A stretch of DNA of 64,000 nt from Candidatus Nitrosocaldus schleperae (GTDB lineage Archaea; Thermoproteota; Nitrososphaeria; Nitrososphaerales; Nitrosocaldaceae), in contig JABXGR010000003.1 in assembly GCA_013538805.1 (NCBI GenBank), positions 1 through 64,000 of the forward strand. Reading direction: 5' to 3'. Shown piece by piece: positions 1-49,135 of this stretch. Below the pieces are notes generated by a model. It did no database searches and was not told the origin of the DNA. It saw only the letters and a program-made list of their open reading frames with translations. Position 1 is the first letter of the stretch, and each line of letters begins with the position of its first letter. The position numbers and the translations under genes were made by a program.

Positions 1-65
1 CCTCTCCTCCTGCTATTACTCCTGCTCCTGCTCTTTGAACCCTTTGCTATATCTATTGCAGCCAT
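1..65 (-). CDS. Archaellin, N-terminal leader only (cut by window edge)
   Basis: The minus-strand ATG at 65 opens a class III leader, MAAIDIAKGSKSRSRSNSRR, followed by R-G, and then runs off the window start. The leader matches the archaellin at 274-1052 base for base except that it has one extra T near 15, which keeps it in frame. Archaellins are the filament subunits of the archaellum; the basic R-R-R-G stretch is where the preflagellin peptidase would cut before the hydrophobic assembly helix. This copy looks intact as far as it can be seen; the body of the protein lies outside the window. Confidence 0.72.
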   Translation of the reverse strand, partial: MAAIDIAKGSKSRSRSNSRRR

Positions 66-99
66 AGCATTAGATTCATGGTATGGATGATATGCTTTA

Positions 100-121
100 G
101 TTTGTAAGCATAGTTACAAAC
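100..121. promoter_or_regulatory. Palindrome upstream of archaellin copy A
   Basis: Perfect inverted repeat GTTTGTAA (100-107), 6-nt spacer GCATAG, TTACAAAC (114-121). It lies 34 nt before the ATG at 65 and close to the start site expected from the TATA-like stretch at about 146-157. It could be an operator or a 5'UTR hairpin. The same element sits in front of the second archaellin. Confidence 0.55.
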
Positions 122-231
122 AGGTAATGGCAAGCATATATGTGTAATATTATATTAAATCATCGAGGGTTAAGGGTTATTACAATTAATTGTAAAGAGG
201 TAACCGAGTAAAAACATATGTTATAATTAAA

Positions 232-41370: not shown

Positions 41371-42528
41371 TCAGCCCTGTATAAGTACTATAACACTTGC
41401 ATGCGTTCCAGCAGCAGCCATGTTATGCACTAACCCTATTCTACAATCCTTTATCTGCCTATCTCCTGCTTTATGCATCAACTGTCTTGTAACCTCAACA
41501 ACTTGAGCAATACCAGTTGTGCCAGATGAGTGTCCTCTACCCAGTATGCCTCCATCTGTGTTAACTGCTGGTATGCTTATCTTCCCTTCAACAGCATAAC
41601 CTCCCTTACCCTTCTCAACGAAGCCCAGATCCTCATATGCTAGTATCTCAAGTATTGTGAATGAGTCATGTACTTGAGCAACATCAACCATCTCTGGCTT
41701 TACATTACTCATCCTATATGCTTGCCTTGCAGCATCTACACTTGCATGCATAGTTGTAAGATCTATGCTATTTATACTAGCACCAATACTACTTGAACCT
41801 ATACCCTTTATCCATACTGGTTCCTTGCAGATACTCTTTGCAAGATCTGCACTTGCAAGGAGTATAGATGCTGCTCCATTGCATGCTATAGAGCAATCGT
41901 ATAGCCTTAATGGTTCAACTATAGGCTTTGAGTTCAATACATCATCAACATCTATAGCATCTTTGCCATAAAAGTATGCCTTATCATTAGTTAATGCATT
42001 TATCCTGTTCTTAACAGCAACCATGGCAAGTTGCTCCCTGCTTGTTCCAAACTCCTGCATATGCTTCATACTATATAGAGCAGCCCAGTGTGCAGGATGC
42101 CTCATATCTCCTCTTGCTACATCCCAATCCAATAGCATACCTGAGTTGCTAGAATCAAACCCAACAACAAGTGCTAGATTGGATAGCCCAGATGCTATGT
42201 ATGAGTATGCTGCTATTAGTGCATCTACCCCAGAACTACACATACTCTCTACCCTATTAACTATCCTTGCCCTTATGCCTAGCATATCAGCCAGTATGTT
42301 TGCTGTATATGCACTGCTATCTGTCGTTGAGGTTATTAGAGCATCTATCCCATCCTTCAATGATCTTGCATCATACTCCATATTGCTAAACATATCAACA
42401 ACAGATTGGATAGCAAGTTCATAGAGTGAGTACTTGATCTCCCTGTTGAACCTTGCTAAACCATAGCCTATGATAGCAACATTAGCATTAGCATTAGCAT
42501 TAGTGCCATTAACATCAGCATTACTCAT
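41371..42528 (-). CDS. Thiolase (SCP-x/acetyl-CoA acetyltransferase type)
   Basis: 385 residues. The acyl-accepting Cys is in VESMCSSGVDALIAAY; the His is in VHDSFTILE and LVHNMAAAGTHASV marks the C-terminal motif. The usual second Cys of CxG is replaced (AAGTHA), as in SCP-x and archaeal thiolases. It may act in acetoacetyl-CoA cleavage of the carbon cycle or in isoprenoid synthesis; AOA carry several. No DUF35 partner is adjacent. The first residues are an Asn/Ala run encoded by ATTAGC repeats. It overlaps the end of the LLM gene by 8 nt. Confidence 0.82.
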   Translation of the reverse strand: MSNADVNGTNANANANVAIIGYGLARFNREIKYSLYELAIQSVVDMFSNMEYDARSLKDGIDALITSTTDSSAYTANILADMLGIRARIVNRVESMCSSGVDALIAAYSYIASGLSNLALVVGFDSSNSGMLLDWDVARGDMRHPAHWAALYSMKHMQEFGTSREQLAMVAVKNRINALTNDKAYFYGKDAIDVDDVLNSKPIVEPLRLYDCSIACNGAASILLASADLAKSICKEPVWIKGIGSSSIGASINSIDLTTMHASVDAARQAYRMSNVKPEMVDVAQVHDSFTILEILAYEDLGFVEKGKGGYAVEGKISIPAVNTDGGILGRGHSSGTTGIAQVVEVTRQLMHKAGDRQIKDCRIGLVHNMAAAGTHASVIVLIQG

Positions 42529-43504
42529 CTCTAACCATAGCCTCCATCATATGCTCAAATATAATGTAATCCTCCTCAGCATTATATACTGGATTTATAA
42601 GAAGTATAGGTAGATCTATATCCTTTATGAACGATCTAAGTTGCTTCACACAATCCTCTACGCTACCTGCCAATGCAAGTGAGTTGAGCATCCTATCACT
42701 TACAAGCATGTGTAAATCCTTGAGTCCACTCCTCCTATACTCTTCTCTTATATGCTCAACCTCATCCCTGAATCCATGCTCTGCCAAGAATCTAGCATAT
42801 ATGGAGCCTACTGCAGTGTAGAATGCTATGCTCTTCTTAGCCCTCTCAATAGCCCTTTGAGTATCGTTGGAGACTGCTGTTATAAGAACTAATGCAACAT
42901 CCAACCTTGGATTTGTATCCTTTAGCATTCTAACTCGCTCACCAAGTTCATCCTTAGGCATGAGGAATAGGATTGCACCATCACCAACCTCGCTAGCAAG
43001 CTTTAGCATACCTTGGTTGGTTCCTGCTATGTATATTGGTATATTGCTCCTTAGAGGCTTAAAGCCTAGCCTCATACCATTAACCCTTACAACTCTTCCA
43101 TTGTAATCAACCCTCTCCCCTCTTGATATCAATCTTATAACATCAACATACTCCTTCATCCTTGCTATATTATCCTTGAACTCTAGACCATGCCAGTCCT
43201 CAGCAAGCCTCTTGCTTCCTGCTCCTAAACCTAGTATCGCTCTGCCATTAGAGTATAAATCTAGGGTATTAACTGCCATTGCAGTACTTGCTGCGCTCCT
43301 AGCATATATGTTGACTATAGCAGTACCTAGCATAACACCTCTAGTTAGCGATGCTATATAAGCAAGTGTTACAAATGCATCCCTCCCCCATGACTCTGGC
43401 ACCCATATGGAGTGTAGGTTCATGCTCTCAGCTCTCCTTGCATACTCTATAACCTGTCTATCATCCAAGAGCATCCCTAGGCTCAGCCCTATCCTCCTCC
43501 CCAT
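42521..43504 (-). CDS. LLM-class oxidoreductase (F420- or FMN-dependent)
   Basis: 327 residues of the luciferase-like monooxygenase fold: GLSLGMLLDDRQVIEYARRA, MNLHSIWVPESWGRDAF, TAIVNIYARSAASTAM and GRAILGLGAGSK. In archaea this fold includes the F420-dependent methylenetetrahydromethanopterin reductase Mer, but the sequence does not decide it; other F420 or FMN enzymes are equally possible. Coupled to the thiolase gene by an 8-nt overlap. Confidence 0.8.
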   Translation of the reverse strand: MGRRIGLSLGMLLDDRQVIEYARRAESMNLHSIWVPESWGRDAFVTLAYIASLTRGVMLGTAIVNIYARSAASTAMAVNTLDLYSNGRAILGLGAGSKRLAEDWHGLEFKDNIARMKEYVDVIRLISRGERVDYNGRVVRVNGMRLGFKPLRSNIPIYIAGTNQGMLKLASEVGDGAILFLMPKDELGERVRMLKDTNPRLDVALVLITAVSNDTQRAIERAKKSIAFYTAVGSIYARFLAEHGFRDEVEHIREEYRRSGLKDLHMLVSDRMLNSLALAGSVEDCVKQLRSFIKDIDLPILLINPVYNAEEDYIIFEHMMEAMVRDE

Positions 43505-43561
43505 TCCTCCATCTCCTCCCCTTCCCTTCCTCCTCTTCTATCACTATTGCTTATACTATTA

Positions 43562-44242
43562 TCATCTTTTGTACTCCCTCAACTCCTTACTTGCCTCTTC
43601 AATATCCTTGTGTGTATCTATAGATCTCCAGTACACATCCTTATACTTTACAGCGTAAAGCATCCCCTTTCTTGCTAGTTGTGGGAATGTATCATACTCT
43701 ATACTCCCCTTATCTGGAAGGTATGCTAGTACATCATGGTTAAGGCAGTAGACCCCAGCATTTATCCAGAACTGATCAAGCTTAGGCTTCTCCTTAAAAC
43801 CAGTTATCCTTGCATCACTGCTCATCTCAACTATCCCATATGGGCTTGGCAATGGAACTACTGCTATGCTATTATTCTGCATCATAACCATCCTTGCTAT
43901 GTTAAGATCGGTTATGATATCACCATTAACAACTATGAACCTCTCCTCACCATTCAGGAGTTGCCTAGCATTCTTAATAGCCCCTCCAGTACCCAATGGC
44001 TCATCCTCAACAACATAATCTATGCTTACTGAGTACCTGCTACCATTGCCAAGATAATCCATTATACGCTCTCTCATGTAGCCAACGCAGAGTATGAGTT
44101 CATCTATGCCATTCAGTCTAAGCCATTCTATCTGCCATGCTACTATTGGCTTTTCAAGTATCTCAACCATTGGCTTTGGTCTATCATCAGTTAGAGGCTT
44201 CAACCTCTTCCCAAAGCCTCCAGCAAGTATCACAGCCTTCAT
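43562..44242 (-). CDS. Sugar-phosphate nucleotidyltransferase (second copy)
   Basis: 226 residues from the ATG at 44242, beginning MKAVILAGGFGKRLKPLTDD, followed by RPKPMVEI. Metal-binding VVNGDIITDL and the C-terminal YWRSIDTHKDIEEA. Paralogue of the gene at 10062; it may make GDP-mannose, UDP-glucose or dTDP-glucose. The start at 44287 is rejected because the TATA-like AAGTTTATTAG (about 44266-44276 on this strand) lies about 29 nt before 44242. Confidence 0.83.
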   Translation of the reverse strand: MKAVILAGGFGKRLKPLTDDRPKPMVEILEKPIVAWQIEWLRLNGIDELILCVGYMRERIMDYLGNGSRYSVSIDYVVEDEPLGTGGAIKNARQLLNGEERFIVVNGDIITDLNIARMVMMQNNSIAVVPLPSPYGIVEMSSDARITGFKEKPKLDQFWINAGVYCLNHDVLAYLPDKGSIEYDTFPQLARKGMLYAVKYKDVYWRSIDTHKDIEEASKELREYKR

Positions 44243-44279
44243 GTGATGAAGGGTAGTATGGGCGCTAATAAACTTAAAC

Positions 44280-44405
44280 TTATCCACGCTCTGTAAGCTT
44301 GTAATGTATCTCCTGATAACATTCTACGCATACCTCCTCATCGTTGGTATGCTCACATGAAAGCATCCTCTTGACTTCTCTCATGCAGATAGGGCATATA
44401 GGCAT
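44280..44405 (-). CDS. Small zinc-finger-like protein
   Basis: 41 residues, MPICPICMREVKRMLSCEHT, then NDEEVCVECYQEIHYKLTER and G. CPIC, C17, H19 and CVEC (C26, C29) could make one or two zinc sites. It is just upstream of the nucleotidyltransferase at 43562 on the same strand. Short but cysteine-patterned, so I consider it real; a similar small protein is at 46285. Confidence 0.55.
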   Translation of the reverse strand: MPICPICMREVKRMLSCEHTNDEEVCVECYQEIHYKLTERG

Positions 44406-44417
44406 ACCATTACACCT

Positions 44418-44902
44418 TCAGAATATCTGGCAACAGAATATCTGGCGAAGATAAGAAATGACTGGATTATTAGCTGCCATGACATTCTGTAGGAATGCCT
44501 TGAAGTTAGTATTTGTTTTAATATTTGTATTACCTGTTATGCGATGTAACTCAGCATTAGTAGAAGGTAGACCGAACTCTTTAACATTAATATTCATGGT
44601 ATTTGCAAGTCTTAATAAGAATCCTTCAAGGTCTGGTCTTAAAACTACTAATATACTATTTTTCGTTTTGTATACTATAATATAGTTATTATTAAGGAGC
44701 ATCTGATAACTATTTAATCTTCTATCCTTATAACTGTTTGGATCTTCATCTATAACTGCCTTTATATTTTCGCTACATTCATGTATTTTCTTAATTATCT
44801 AGATCTACCTACGCTATGTATTATCCTCGCATCTCTATCCTTGTTACCTAACAGTGCTCTAATGAATAACTCATCAGCATAACACTCAACCAGTATCTTC
44901 AT
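44418..44902 (-). pseudogene. TOPRIM-like partner of the ATPase, frameshifted
   Basis: The ATG at 44902, 17 nt inside the ATPase gene end, opens MKILVECYADELFIRALLGN, which runs 35 codons to a TAA at 44795-44797. The next frame continues without a start as IIKKIHECSENIKAVIDEDP and on to 44418. One A inserted at about 44797 (TAGATAATT to TAGAATAATT) joins them into about 160 residues. VEC-x-ADE and the later DEDP fit the TOPRIM metal site (Glu, then D-x-D), and the middle IILVVLRPDLEGFLLRLA-like part is hydrophobic. Such short proteins accompany OLD-type ATPases and are nucleases. Whether the frameshift is real is unknown. Confidence 0.65.
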
Positions 44903-46193
44903 CTTCTCCACCTATTGATTTCTCTACGTTAAAGAAGAGATCGTAATCATACTCTAACAGTTGCTGTATCTCTTCCTCCCTCAATGACTTCACACAGGTA
45001 GTTCTATTTTTATCCAGATAAGTAACAAGTATGTTTATATCCTCCTTCTTACATTTCTCAACTAGTGTTAACAAGAAGTATGGATTATGTGTAGAGATGA
45101 AGAACTGGTTATTATTCTCATCATATGCTATTAACTCTGCTATGTGCTTTGTGAATACAGGGAATATATGTGCTTCAGGTTCCTCTAGTACTATCACTGC
45201 ATTCTTGTTGGATAATATTGCAGCTGCATAGAATATAATCCTTTGTAGACCATCGGATAATGTATTGTAAGGTATCTCAACTGTTCTTATATCATCAATT
45301 ATCATATCATCACCAACCTTCTTCTCTCCTAATACTATAAGTATCTCAGAGTATGTAGGGAACAAGCTAGGACCGTAGCCCTTTAGTATTTCATTTACAT
45401 ATTTCCTCACATCTTTATTATTCTTTATTATATGATTAAGATTACTACCGTGAGGTGTATATAGATATTCTCCATACGGTGCCATACTATAAATAGGTTC
45501 TCTAAATCTATAGAATCTTAAGATAGGGTAATGAGAATCCGTGTTCTTACTTACTATAATTCTACCTATCATCCATGGATGCAAATAACATACGTATGGA
45601 TGTTCTCCAAGTTCTGTAAGTTTTATACTCCAGCTGCCATTTTGCGGTATCTGACCAGAGTCGAACTTTGGATTCCCTAACTGCCATGTAGTACTATCTA
45701 GAGGGTTTCTTGCAAATACTATTGCATGGCTTGCTGTATCCTTATTAACAAAGAATACAGTACTACCTGCTGGTACTGTTAGTGTTGATGGTTTGAAGCA
45801 TTTATCGCTCAGCATCTTCTTCCAATCTCCAGTTGGTGAGTATGCTGGATTACATGATTCATTACTTGCTCCCTCTGGGATCTCTATGTAAAATTGTGGT
45901 ATTAATCCTTCAGCACGATAGTTGTTCGCAGAATAGAACTCAACTTTCTTCCCATCCATGACAATACGTATGGGCTTACCTTCTTTGAAGTGATAAAGAT
46001 CACTTACCTCTCTGTATCTTATAAACTCACTTATATTGCCTGATGTTTGGAGAGCACATACAAGTCCTAGAGCCTCAAGTATGTTGCTCTTGCCAGTATT
46101 TGGTTCCCCTATAAGAACATTGACCTTTTTACACTCTATCTCCAAATGCTTTATAGATTTGAAATTTTCTATACCTAGTCTCTTTATCATCAA
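44886..46193 (-). CDS. OLD-like AAA ATPase with inserted cupredoxin domain
   Basis: 435 residues in one uninterrupted frame. ATPase parts: Walker A GEPNTGKSN (29-37), ABC-like signature LSDGLQRII (312-320), Walker B AVIVLEEPEAH (332-342) and H-loop ISTHNPYF (366-373). Residues about 103-214 (DNA about 45552-45887) are instead a complete type-1 copper domain: IPEGAS start, TVPAGSTVFFVNKD core, first ligand H156, then C202-x2-H205-x2-M208 in YVCYLHPWM. Two more cysteines, C114 and C132, could form a disulfide. No signal peptide, so it is cytosolic. AOA cupredoxins are normally secreted. I read it as an OLD-family ATPase paired with a TOPRIM-like gene, possibly anti-mobile-element, that has gained a copper/redox module. 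The fusion is plain; the function is inferred. Confidence 0.85.
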   Translation of the reverse strand: MMIKRLGIENFKSIKHLEIECKKVNVLIGEPNTGKSNILEALGLVCALQTSGNISEFIRYREVSDLYHFKEGKPIRIVMDGKKVEFYSANNYRAEGLIPQFYIEIPEGASNESCNPAYSPTGDWKKMLSDKCFKPSTLTVPAGSTVFFVNKDTASHAIVFARNPLDSTTWQLGNPKFDSGQIPQNGSWSIKLTELGEHPYVCYLHPWMIGRIIVSKNTDSHYPILRFYRFREPIYSMAPYGEYLYTPHGSNLNHIIKNNKDVRKYVNEILKGYGPSLFPTYSEILIVLGEKKVGDDMIIDDIRTVEIPYNTLSDGLQRIIFYAAAILSNKNAVIVLEEPEAHIFPVFTKHIAELIAYDENNNQFFISTHNPYFLLTLVEKCKKEDINILVTYLDKNRTTCVKSLREEEIQQLLEYDYDLFFNVEKSIGGEDEDTG

Positions 46194-46284
46194 TAAATGA
46201 TTAAATATTAAGTATAAGATAAGTCTTTCTAAATACTATCTATATAGCATCTTTCCTTAACTCTATTTATCGATTCATAATATA

Positions 46285-46446
46285 TCAAGTCACATCTATA
46301 TCTGAGAAGCCTTTATCCTTTATGCTCTCAACATACTTCCTTATTATCTCCCTAACACAGTCATGGCATATTATGTACACCTTCTGCTCAACAGGCACAA
46401 GTACAAATTCGTTAGTATCTCTATGGCATCTAACACACTCTACCAT
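46285..46446 (-). CDS. Small CxxC-CxxC protein
   Basis: 53 residues: MVECVRCHRDTNEFVLVPVE, then QKVYIICHDCVREIIRKYVE and SIKDKGFSDIDVT. C4-x2-C7 and C27-x2-C30 likely form one zinc site. Independent small gene between the ATPase and a membrane protein, same strand. Confidence 0.65.
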   Translation of the reverse strand: MVECVRCHRDTNEFVLVPVEQKVYIICHDCVREIIRKYVESIKDKGFSDIDVT

Positions 46447-46493
46447 TAATTGTATGGTTTAACCATACACTATTTATAAATTCTTATCTTTAT

Positions 46494-46859
46494 CTATGCC
46501 ATCCTTGCTATCTTTGCATCTCTGAACCTCTTTATTATCCCTAATGCTATCACAAGTGCACCAAGCCCTGCTACAGGGGCTGAGCCAGCTATTGCTCCTC
46601 CTGCTGCTATCAGCACACCATTTATGATGAGCATTATCCACACAAAGGTTGAGACCTCTCTAGCAACGAAGAATGCTGCTATGGATAATGCTATAGCAGA
46701 ACCTCCAAATGCTAACCCTCTAACCATTGCGTTAGTAGGCAGAAATCCAGTCTCCCTTGCATCTTCTCCATCTATGCTCCTGCTTGCTGCCTCATCTGCA
46801 CCGTAGATTATGAGGAGTGCTAGAGCAGTTATGACTAGACCCTTCGCAATCTTTAACAT
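46494..46859 (-). CDS. Membrane protein, hypothetical
   Basis: 121 residues with about four hydrophobic segments (residues about 4-20, 45-65, 70-88 and 92-108) and a short basic tail. No family recognised. It lies alone between bioD and the small zinc protein. Confidence 0.6.
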   Translation of the reverse strand: MLKIAKGLVITALALLIIYGADEAASRSIDGEDARETGFLPTNAMVRGLAFGGSAIALSIAAFFVAREVSTFVWIMLIINGVLIAAGGAIAGSAPVAGLGALVIALGIIKRFRDAKIARMA

Positions 46860-46917
46860 GATATAAATTAGTGCTATCCCGTTAATAAACTATAATATGA
46901 CGATGGGATCATGATGG

Positions 46918-47598
46918 CTAGGTTAGCAGCAGGTCATACCTTATATACTTTGCAATGGAAGGTATATCATCAGGATCCTTGATGTATGGTATGCTCCCTA
47001 TCACTGGCACGTTACTCAACTCCTGTATTATGCTTCCAACATTAGCCTCAACTGGATTGCTGTAATCTACCATATTCATTACTATACCCATTACCTCTAC
47101 GCCCCTGCTCTTGCACGCTTCAATGGTTAGTAGTGTATGATTTATAGTACCTAACCTTGCCCTCGCAACTACTACTGCTGGTAGTGCAATCTCCTTGATG
47201 AGATCAAGTACATAGTAATCCCTCTTTATAGGCACCATAACACCACCTATACCCTCAACTACAAGGAACTCATGCCTCTCCTTCAGCATCTTGTATGCTC
47301 TTAACACTCTCTCAATATCTATCTCCTGCTTGAGCATCATGCTTGCCATGTATGGCGATGCTTCTACAGCAAGGAATACAGGGTTCACAAGTTCGTACTC
47401 ACTTCTATCTAGACATGAGTATCTTGCTATGAGTTCAGCATCTGTAGACTTGAATACTGCATCTCTATCTATTCCAGTTGCTACTGGCTTCATACCTACA
47501 GCATCTATGCCATCTCTCCTCAATGCATAAACTATCGCTGCTGTAACTAGAGTCTTGCCTACACCAGTATCTGTACCAGTTATGAATACCCCGCTCAT
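46918..47598 (-). CDS. bioD: Dethiobiotin synthase
   Basis: 226 residues from the ATG at 47598. P-loop GTDTGVGKTLV at about 8-18, KPVATG as the substrate loop, and EGIGGVMVPI as the switch region. It makes dethiobiotin from diaminopelargonate and CO2 with ATP. The longer in-frame opening to 47862 runs through low-complexity sequence and antisense of the transporter, so it is rejected. bioA lies 4 kb away at 51724, so the pathway is split. Confidence 0.9.
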   Translation of the reverse strand: MSGVFITGTDTGVGKTLVTAAIVYALRRDGIDAVGMKPVATGIDRDAVFKSTDAELIARYSCLDRSEYELVNPVFLAVEASPYMASMMLKQEIDIERVLRAYKMLKERHEFLVVEGIGGVMVPIKRDYYVLDLIKEIALPAVVVARARLGTINHTLLTIEACKSRGVEVMGIVMNMVDYSNPVEANVGSIIQELSNVPVIGSIPYIKDPDDIPSIAKYIRYDLLLT

Positions 47599-47656
47599 CC
47601 TCCTATGAGTAGTAGATACCATTATTATGGGTTTTATACCATCTCTATCATCTCGG

Positions 47657-49135
47657 ATGAGTGTTGATACAAGTATGCTTGGTCTAGTGCTAGGCCCAGT
47701 AGTATTCCTTGTAATACTGTTGGTGGAGGGCATGGTTATGATGGATCCTGCTCCAAGGATAGTACTTGCTCTAGTAGCATGGATGGTTGTATGGTGGATA
47801 ACTAATGCTATCCCTTTGTATGCAACAGCACTACTCCCCTTGGTTGTGCTCCCAGCATCCAACGTTATACAGATAAGCAGTATTGCTGCGAACTATGCTG
47901 ATAGGACTATATTCCTCTTACTAGGCAGCCTCATGCTTGCTAGAGCAATAGAGGTATCAGGGTTGCATAGGAGGTTTGCTATAAGGTTGCTACTCATGTT
48001 AGGCAATGATAGTAAGAGCATACTAGGAGGGTTCATCTTAGTTACTGCTCTCCTTAGTGCATTCATGAGCAACACGGTAGTTGCTGCTATGATGATCCCT
48101 CTAGCCTTATCTATAATCTCAGTCATGGATGAGGAGCATAGGAGGAGGATAGCACCAGCACTCATGATAGTCATAGCATACTCTGCAAGCATAGGAGGGG
48201 TTATTACACTTGTAGGCACACCTCCAAATCTTATATTTGCATCTATAGCAAGCGATATGGGTTATGATGTAACATTCCTCTCATGGCTCCCTATAGGGCT
48301 TCCAGTAGGCTCAATACTCCTGCTACTACTCTGGCTCTATCTGCTTTACGTGCATAGGTTGAGGGATGTTAAGGTTATAGAGAGTAGGGATGTTGTAATA
48401 GATGAAGCCAATAGACTTGGAAGGATAAGCAGGAGGGAGAAGGCTGTTCTAGCAGTGTTCATAGCAACGATAGCAGCATGGATGAGTAGGGGTGCATGGG
48501 GCTCATACCTCCCAGGTGTTGATGATGCTGTTATAGCAGTATCTGCAGCACTCTTGCTATTTGTAATAAGGGTTAAGGATGAAGATGAGAGCAAGGAGAA
48601 GGAGGATGGTGCTAACATAAAGGGTAGAGTAGGAGTAGGAGTAGGAGTAGGAAGAGGAGAGGTTAGGCTCTTAACATGGGATGAGGCATCAAGGATACCA
48701 TGGGGTGTGCTAGTCCTCATAGGAGGAAGCCTTGCACTTGCAAATGCATTCACAGCAACAGGGTTAGATAAGATCGTTGCATCAGCCCTAGCCATAGAGG
48801 CTAGCCCTTCACTCATGATACTATTCATAACAACAGTAACAGTATTCATAACTGAGTTGATGAGTAATACAGCAGTAGCAACACTCATGCTTCCTGTAGT
48901 TAGCAGTGTAGCAGAGCATGTTGGTATGGAGCCATTGCAACTCATGCTTGCAGCAACGTTAGCAGCAACCCTAAGCTTCATGCTCCCAGTAGCAACTCCT
49001 CCAAATGCAATGGCATTTGCATCTGGCTACCTTACTGTAGCGTACATGGTAAGGATGGGGTTCATGATGAACCTCTTCAGCATATCAGTGATCACAGCAT
49101 TAGTATATATTATAACACCATATGTTAGATTCTAA
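47657..49135 (+). CDS. DASS-family sodium:anion symporter
   Basis: 492 residues, about 11-12 hydrophobic spans. Duplicated family motifs: FMSNTVVAAMM with VGTPPNLIFASI in the first half, LMSNTAVATLMLPV with VATPPNAMAFAS in the second. The DASS/SLC13 family carries dicarboxylates, sulfate or tricarboxylates with sodium. A cytoplasmic loop (about 310-340) contains a Gly/Val repeat. The ATG at 47657 is chosen because TTTTATACC (47631-47639) is a TATA box 20-26 nt upstream; the in-frame ATG at 47627 would lie before it. Confidence 0.85.
   Translation: MSVDTSMLGLVLGPVVFLVILLVEGMVMMDPAPRIVLALVAWMVVWWITNAIPLYATALLPLVVLPASNVIQISSIAANYADRTIFLLLGSLMLARAIEVSGLHRRFAIRLLLMLGNDSKSILGGFILVTALLSAFMSNTVVAAMMIPLALSIISVMDEEHRRRIAPALMIVIAYSASIGGVITLVGTPPNLIFASIASDMGYDVTFLSWLPIGLPVGSILLLLLWLYLLYVHRLRDVKVIESRDVVIDEANRLGRISRREKAVLAVFIATIAAWMSRGAWGSYLPGVDDAVIAVSAALLLFVIRVKDEDESKEKEDGANIKGRVGVGVGVGRGEVRLLTWDEASRIPWGVLVLIGGSLALANAFTATGLDKIVASALAIEASPSLMILFITTVTVFITELMSNTAVATLMLPVVSSVAEHVGMEPLQLMLAATLAATLSFMLPVATPPNAMAFASGYLTVAYMVRMGFMMNLFSISVITALVYIITPYVRF

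Follow-up and report, generated by a model that had tools for sequence, protein, structure and literature searches.

An ATPase reading frame containing a cupredoxin domain

The window analyzed here is a stretch of 64,000 nucleotides from the genome of Candidatus Nitrosocaldus schleperae, an ammonia-oxidising archaeon in which the archaeal AmoA gene was found. Its minus strand carries an open reading frame (44886..46190) of 434 codons, counted from an ATG at 46190 that is a likelier start than the TTG at 46193 (435 codons), with no internal stops. The N-terminal half of an ATPase (residues ~1–99, minus strand, 45897..46193) contains the Walker A motif GEPNTGKSN at residues 29–37. It is followed by a cupredoxin domain (residues ~100–214, minus strand, 45552..45896) with the ligands H156, C202, H205 and M208, and then by the C-terminal ATPase half (minus strand, 44889..45551) with the signature LSDGLQR, the Walker B motif VIVLEEPEAH and the STHNP switch. 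The chimera is known from this one genome, represented by one assembly in 16 contigs.

Both domains scored over the Pfam cut-offs in the same protein: AAA_15 (E 9.9e-24) and AAA_21 (E 9.4e-20) for the ATPase, and Copper-bind (PF00127, E 3.6e-6) for residues 133–214. Comparison of the cupredoxin part with PDB sequences gave matches to plastocyanin, amicyanin and nitrite reductase. An earlier interpretation of the locus from its letters (the sequence-only reading) had described a single 435-codon frame with an ATPase and a complete in-frame cupredoxin domain, at the same Walker A position and with the same ligand numbering. These claims were borne out, and the presence of a cupredoxin inside an OLD/AriA-like ATPase frame is confirmed. 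The cytosolic location that it proposed is supported by context, since the signal peptide of the secreted relatives is absent from the chimera.

Prediction of the full protein, a check proposed in the same reading, was carried out with AlphaFold2 for the whole chimera (21-row alignment), and resulted in a model with a pLDDT of 80 in which the ATPase and cupredoxin folds were both formed. The strand blocks of the cupredoxin reached up to 86–88 and the ATPase core 90+, with a weak linker at 89–95. A Foldseek search with this model matched the OLD, Gabija GajA and retron-Eco8 ATPases, and also a Nitrosopumilus multicopper oxidase that has a cupredoxin domain. With Walker A, signature, Walker B and H-switch placed in an ABC/OLD fold, the chimera is an OLD-like ABC ATPase, and the insert is, by its predicted fold and its His, Cys, His and Met ligands, a type-1 copper protein.

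A two-gene ATPase family with a variable loop

Relatives were searched for using the ATPase as query with the cupredoxin left out. Insert-free relatives are scattered, occurring in Thermoproteota (L060, with 51% identity, and L061, L062, L063, L064 and L065) and Bacteroidota (L057 and L058), and the N-terminal ATPase half of the chimera is 42–48% identical to them. A small partner gene comes after the ATPase in each insert-free relative, which defines a two-gene family. The best PADLOC model for the ATPase was AriA (E 1.8e-25), with HEC-01A, AbiLi and GajA scoring close behind. In the two Bacteroidota (~3990–5650 in L057 and L058), the ATPase and its partner lie within a complex I (nuo) operon, in both genomes at one and the same position between nuoF-like and nuoG-like genes.

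The ATPase of the chimera keeps 49 of the 53 family-invariant residues. Leave-one-out comparison against any four relatives gave 0.89–0.92 for the window ATPase and 0.80–0.98 for a left-out insert-free relative. In the signature region (SDTLQR), the window protein has Gly in place of a family-invariant Thr (45249–45251, residue 314 from the ATG).

In the relatives, the insertion site lies between the Walker A and signature motifs, in a loop whose length varies. The window ATPase lacks ~20 native residues of this loop and the cupredoxin occupies their place; the event was therefore a replacement and not a bare addition. The sequence-only reading had described an ATPase interrupted between these two motifs, which is correct as to position but not as to the kind of event. 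It had also called for relatives with the same insertion. None of those examined carries a cupredoxin at the loop, and no further cupredoxin-bearing member was found among 44 genomes of the best relative's class.

Searches of viral contigs gave no match to either the cupredoxin or the chimera, and a viral source of either was rejected. The family profile detected only three distant ATPases among viral sequences, and a plasmid match was a fragmentary ATPase.

The partner gene

The partner gene in the window (minus strand, 44418..44902) overlaps the end of the ATPase and contains a conserved E (in VEC) and a DxD (in DEDP), with one frameshift near 44800. It is intact in six relatives (L060, L061, L063, L057, L058 and L065), where its length is ~150–180 aa. 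The family as a whole conserves the E and the DxD. The model of the L060 partner has a pLDDT of 94, with E and DxD after strand 1 and after strand 3, as expected for a TOPRIM domain.

This model did not match any solved (PDB) or viral structure, so that a fold search did not identify the partner as TOPRIM, and the intact partners did not match Pfam or PADLOC families at a meaningful level. The ATPase and TOPRIM-like pair of the sequence-only reading thus holds in that an OLD-like ATPase adjoins a gene with E and DxD, but the TOPRIM assignment lacks an HMM or fold match; we call the partner TOPRIM-like because the residues are conserved and suitably placed. Four intact partners likewise gave no match to AriB or DUF4435, and by its partner gene the pair does not qualify as PARIS. 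The window partner, read through its frameshift, gave a weak match to the AriB model (0.006).

The frameshift is either real or an assembly error, and since the gene is otherwise open and has just this one lesion, it may be the latter. If real, it implies a module that is incomplete or recently inactivated. Frameshifts recur in the gene pair at differing positions, affecting the ATPase in L061, both genes in L064, and the partner in L062 and in the window.

Genomic site of the gene pair

The two genes form a lineage-specific segment of 1.87 kb (44414..46278). Within the genus, the pair is present only in the window's genome. The same site is empty in three of five genus mates (G001, G002 and G005), with the flanks there separated by no more than tens of bases, while the G004 contig ends before the insertion site. 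Since the site is empty in genus mates, the pair represents a gain in the window's lineage, or a loss in all others. The low G+C of the ATPase parts (0.34–0.36) fits acquisition. In G003, a SIS-domain (sugar isomerase-like) gene is present at this intergenic site (L085, 3255–4319), marking it as a variable spot in the genus.

Identity around the site is mosaic (window 41371–49135 compared with L083–L087), with G005 being 80% identical in the left flank and 92% in the right. This suggests recombination near the insertion site.

Origin of the cupredoxin domain

The closest relatives of the insert are a secreted cupredoxin present in all six genomes of the genus, and this is the protein from which the domain derives. 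The next-nearest cupredoxin, from a sister genus, is only about 41% identical. Homology begins at the mature N-terminus of the secreted protein and stops at the last strand. The secreted proteins are ~310 aa long with a signal peptide and a C-terminal anchor, whereas the chimera has only the domain itself, set within a cytosolic ATPase.

The DNA-level comparison with cupredoxins of ammonia-oxidising archaea suggested by the sequence-only reading gave 74–79% identity to the genus copies, and 73–75% at the protein level. The genome's own copy (G000:C16:26696-27046), which has the same ligands, is 73% identical in amino acids and 79% in nucleotides, and a recent copy of this gene was rejected as the source. 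The insert falls below the 84–97% protein identity that the secreted cupredoxins of the genus share with each other, and so was not copied recently from the resident gene. The same reading had named two marks of a recent accident, namely absence of the insertion from relatives and near-identity to a neighboring cupredoxin gene. The first was observed; the second was not, and the insert branch is moreover under purifying selection.

Five branches of the genus tree fit the insert about equally well (within 2.3 lnL), and it may have diverged either inside the genus or at its base. The AlaRS species tree was distorted by a fragment from G004 and had weak support.

Selection on the chimera

Selection was assessed with a purpose-written codon model comparing the insert branch with the rest of the tree. 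The dN/dS of the insert branch, which mixes the pre- and post-insertion history of the cupredoxin, was 0.31, compared with 0.086 elsewhere (the secreted genes). Models with one common ratio or with an insert-branch ratio of 1 were each ~6 lnL worse (2ΔlnL about 12) and were rejected. Across all nine placements of the insert, dN/dS was 0.20–0.31 and a ratio of 1 was rejected at each. At 0.1 neutral substitutions per site, 5.5 stops would be expected in the frame, and none was seen.

The sequence-only reading had offered as its alternative a chance insertion into a decaying locus, that is, an accident in a dying gene pair. The frameshift in the partner, and the frameshifts in the pair in several relatives, are in line with such decay. 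However, the 434 codons are free of stops and frameshifts, neutral evolution of the insert branch is rejected, and the ATPase residues are conserved to the same degree as in the relatives. This evidence leaves room for one version of the alternative only, in which the donor had already diverged and its insertion was very recent. Overall, the chimera looks from its sequence to be kept by selection, and a decaying accident is unlikely.

A further possibility is an artifact in which the assembler joined a cupredoxin segment into the ATPase gene. The fusion is absent from relatives and was seen in one genome of 16 contigs, as would be the case for such an artifact. Against this, it requires two in-frame misjoins 345 bp apart together with the loss of ~20 native codons, a free gene with the insert's sequence was not found in the genome or the genus, and a dN/dS near 0.09, not 0.2–0.3, would be expected if the segment came from a free secreted gene of a co-occurring strain. 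We regard a misassembly as quite improbable; the chimera is probably real and unusual, and probably maintained.

Among the positions conserved both in the genus and in distant cupredoxins, the insert keeps 22 of 23, including all four copper ligands; where conservation is limited to the genus, it keeps 51 of 66 (Fisher p 0.06). If the ligands had changed at the same rate as the other genus-invariant sites, all four would still be kept by chance with a probability of about 0.35. It is conceivable, though on balance somewhat doubtful, that the cupredoxin sits in a permissive loop with no role in copper binding or sensing, and is constrained only since its misfolding would ruin the ATPase. The variation in loop length among relatives would make the site tolerant, and the two termini of the cupredoxin fold lie near each other. 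The dN/dS of the insert branch is also about threefold above that of the secreted genes, and a constraint on foldability alone could give a ratio of 0.3. The retention of the ligands and of the deeply conserved positions points the other way, weakly when taken alone, as does the loss of the native loop residues.

Comparison with known systems and proposed function

The cupredoxin-bearing ATPase and its partner resemble PARIS (AriA ATPase sensor and AriB TOPRIM nuclease; class 4 OLD) in consisting of two adjacent genes, an ATPase followed by a small gene with E and DxD. They differ in the partner, which in the window's family is short and without an AriB/DUF4435 match in intact relatives, and in the cupredoxin domain, which is not described for PARIS. 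OLD, Gabija GajA and the retron-Eco8 ATPase share the ATPase fold, but have TOPRIM in the same chain and no cupredoxin, whereas the partner of the chimera is a separate gene. Cran1 (PMC12796447) is likewise an archaeal OLD-family ATPase, of class 5 and involved in the cell cycle; unlike the chimera, it is a single chain with TOPRIM, is apparently not antiviral, and has no cupredoxin. A cupredoxin inside a cytosolic ABC-type ATPase was not found in the literature searched or in the relatives examined. From its sequence, the chimera appears to be a variant of the split-OLD kind, new by its cupredoxin.

In PARIS, AriA forms a hexameric sensor that sequesters the AriB nuclease and frees it upon binding of a trigger (PMC12409363, PMC11455837). 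Our leading explanation, held tentatively, is that the locus is an acquired split-OLD module in which a loop of the AriA-like ATPase was swapped for the genus's own cupredoxin as sensor, in a PARIS-like manner. The module, comprising the ATPase and a small TOPRIM-like nuclease, would have been gained by horizontal transfer, and the mature cupredoxin domain, without its signal peptide, would have taken the place of the variable loop lying between the Walker A and signature motifs. As in PARIS, the ATPase would act as the sensor, keeping the nuclease inactive and freeing it once a trigger binds. By this analogy, the cupredoxin would provide a new surface for sensing or binding copper, redox state or a protein ligand, and replacement of the loop would alter the trigger of the ATPase.

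The occurrence in a single genome, the frameshifted partner and the Thr to Gly change in the signature region count against the sensor swap. For the function of the hybrid protein we infer roles in defence and in sensing, copper loading in the cytosol, and a partner that is functional now or was so recently. Type-1 copper sites are normally loaded outside the cytosol, which counts against a copper-loaded cytosolic domain. Copper sensing, redox sensing, a decoy for a viral protein and a tolerated passenger are all compatible with the observations. More specific forms of the idea, either an integrated decoy in which a copy of the host surface cupredoxin, set into a cytosolic defence ATPase, serves as bait and a viral binder or attacker of the genuine protein triggers the nuclease, or a copper- or redox-gated OLD-type ATPase in the cytosol, are improbable.

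If functional, the chimera would represent a natural sensor swap in which a host protein has taken over the sensing role of a split-OLD module. Ammonia-oxidising archaea would then have a nuclease switch coupled to copper or redox state, or to a surface protein of the host.
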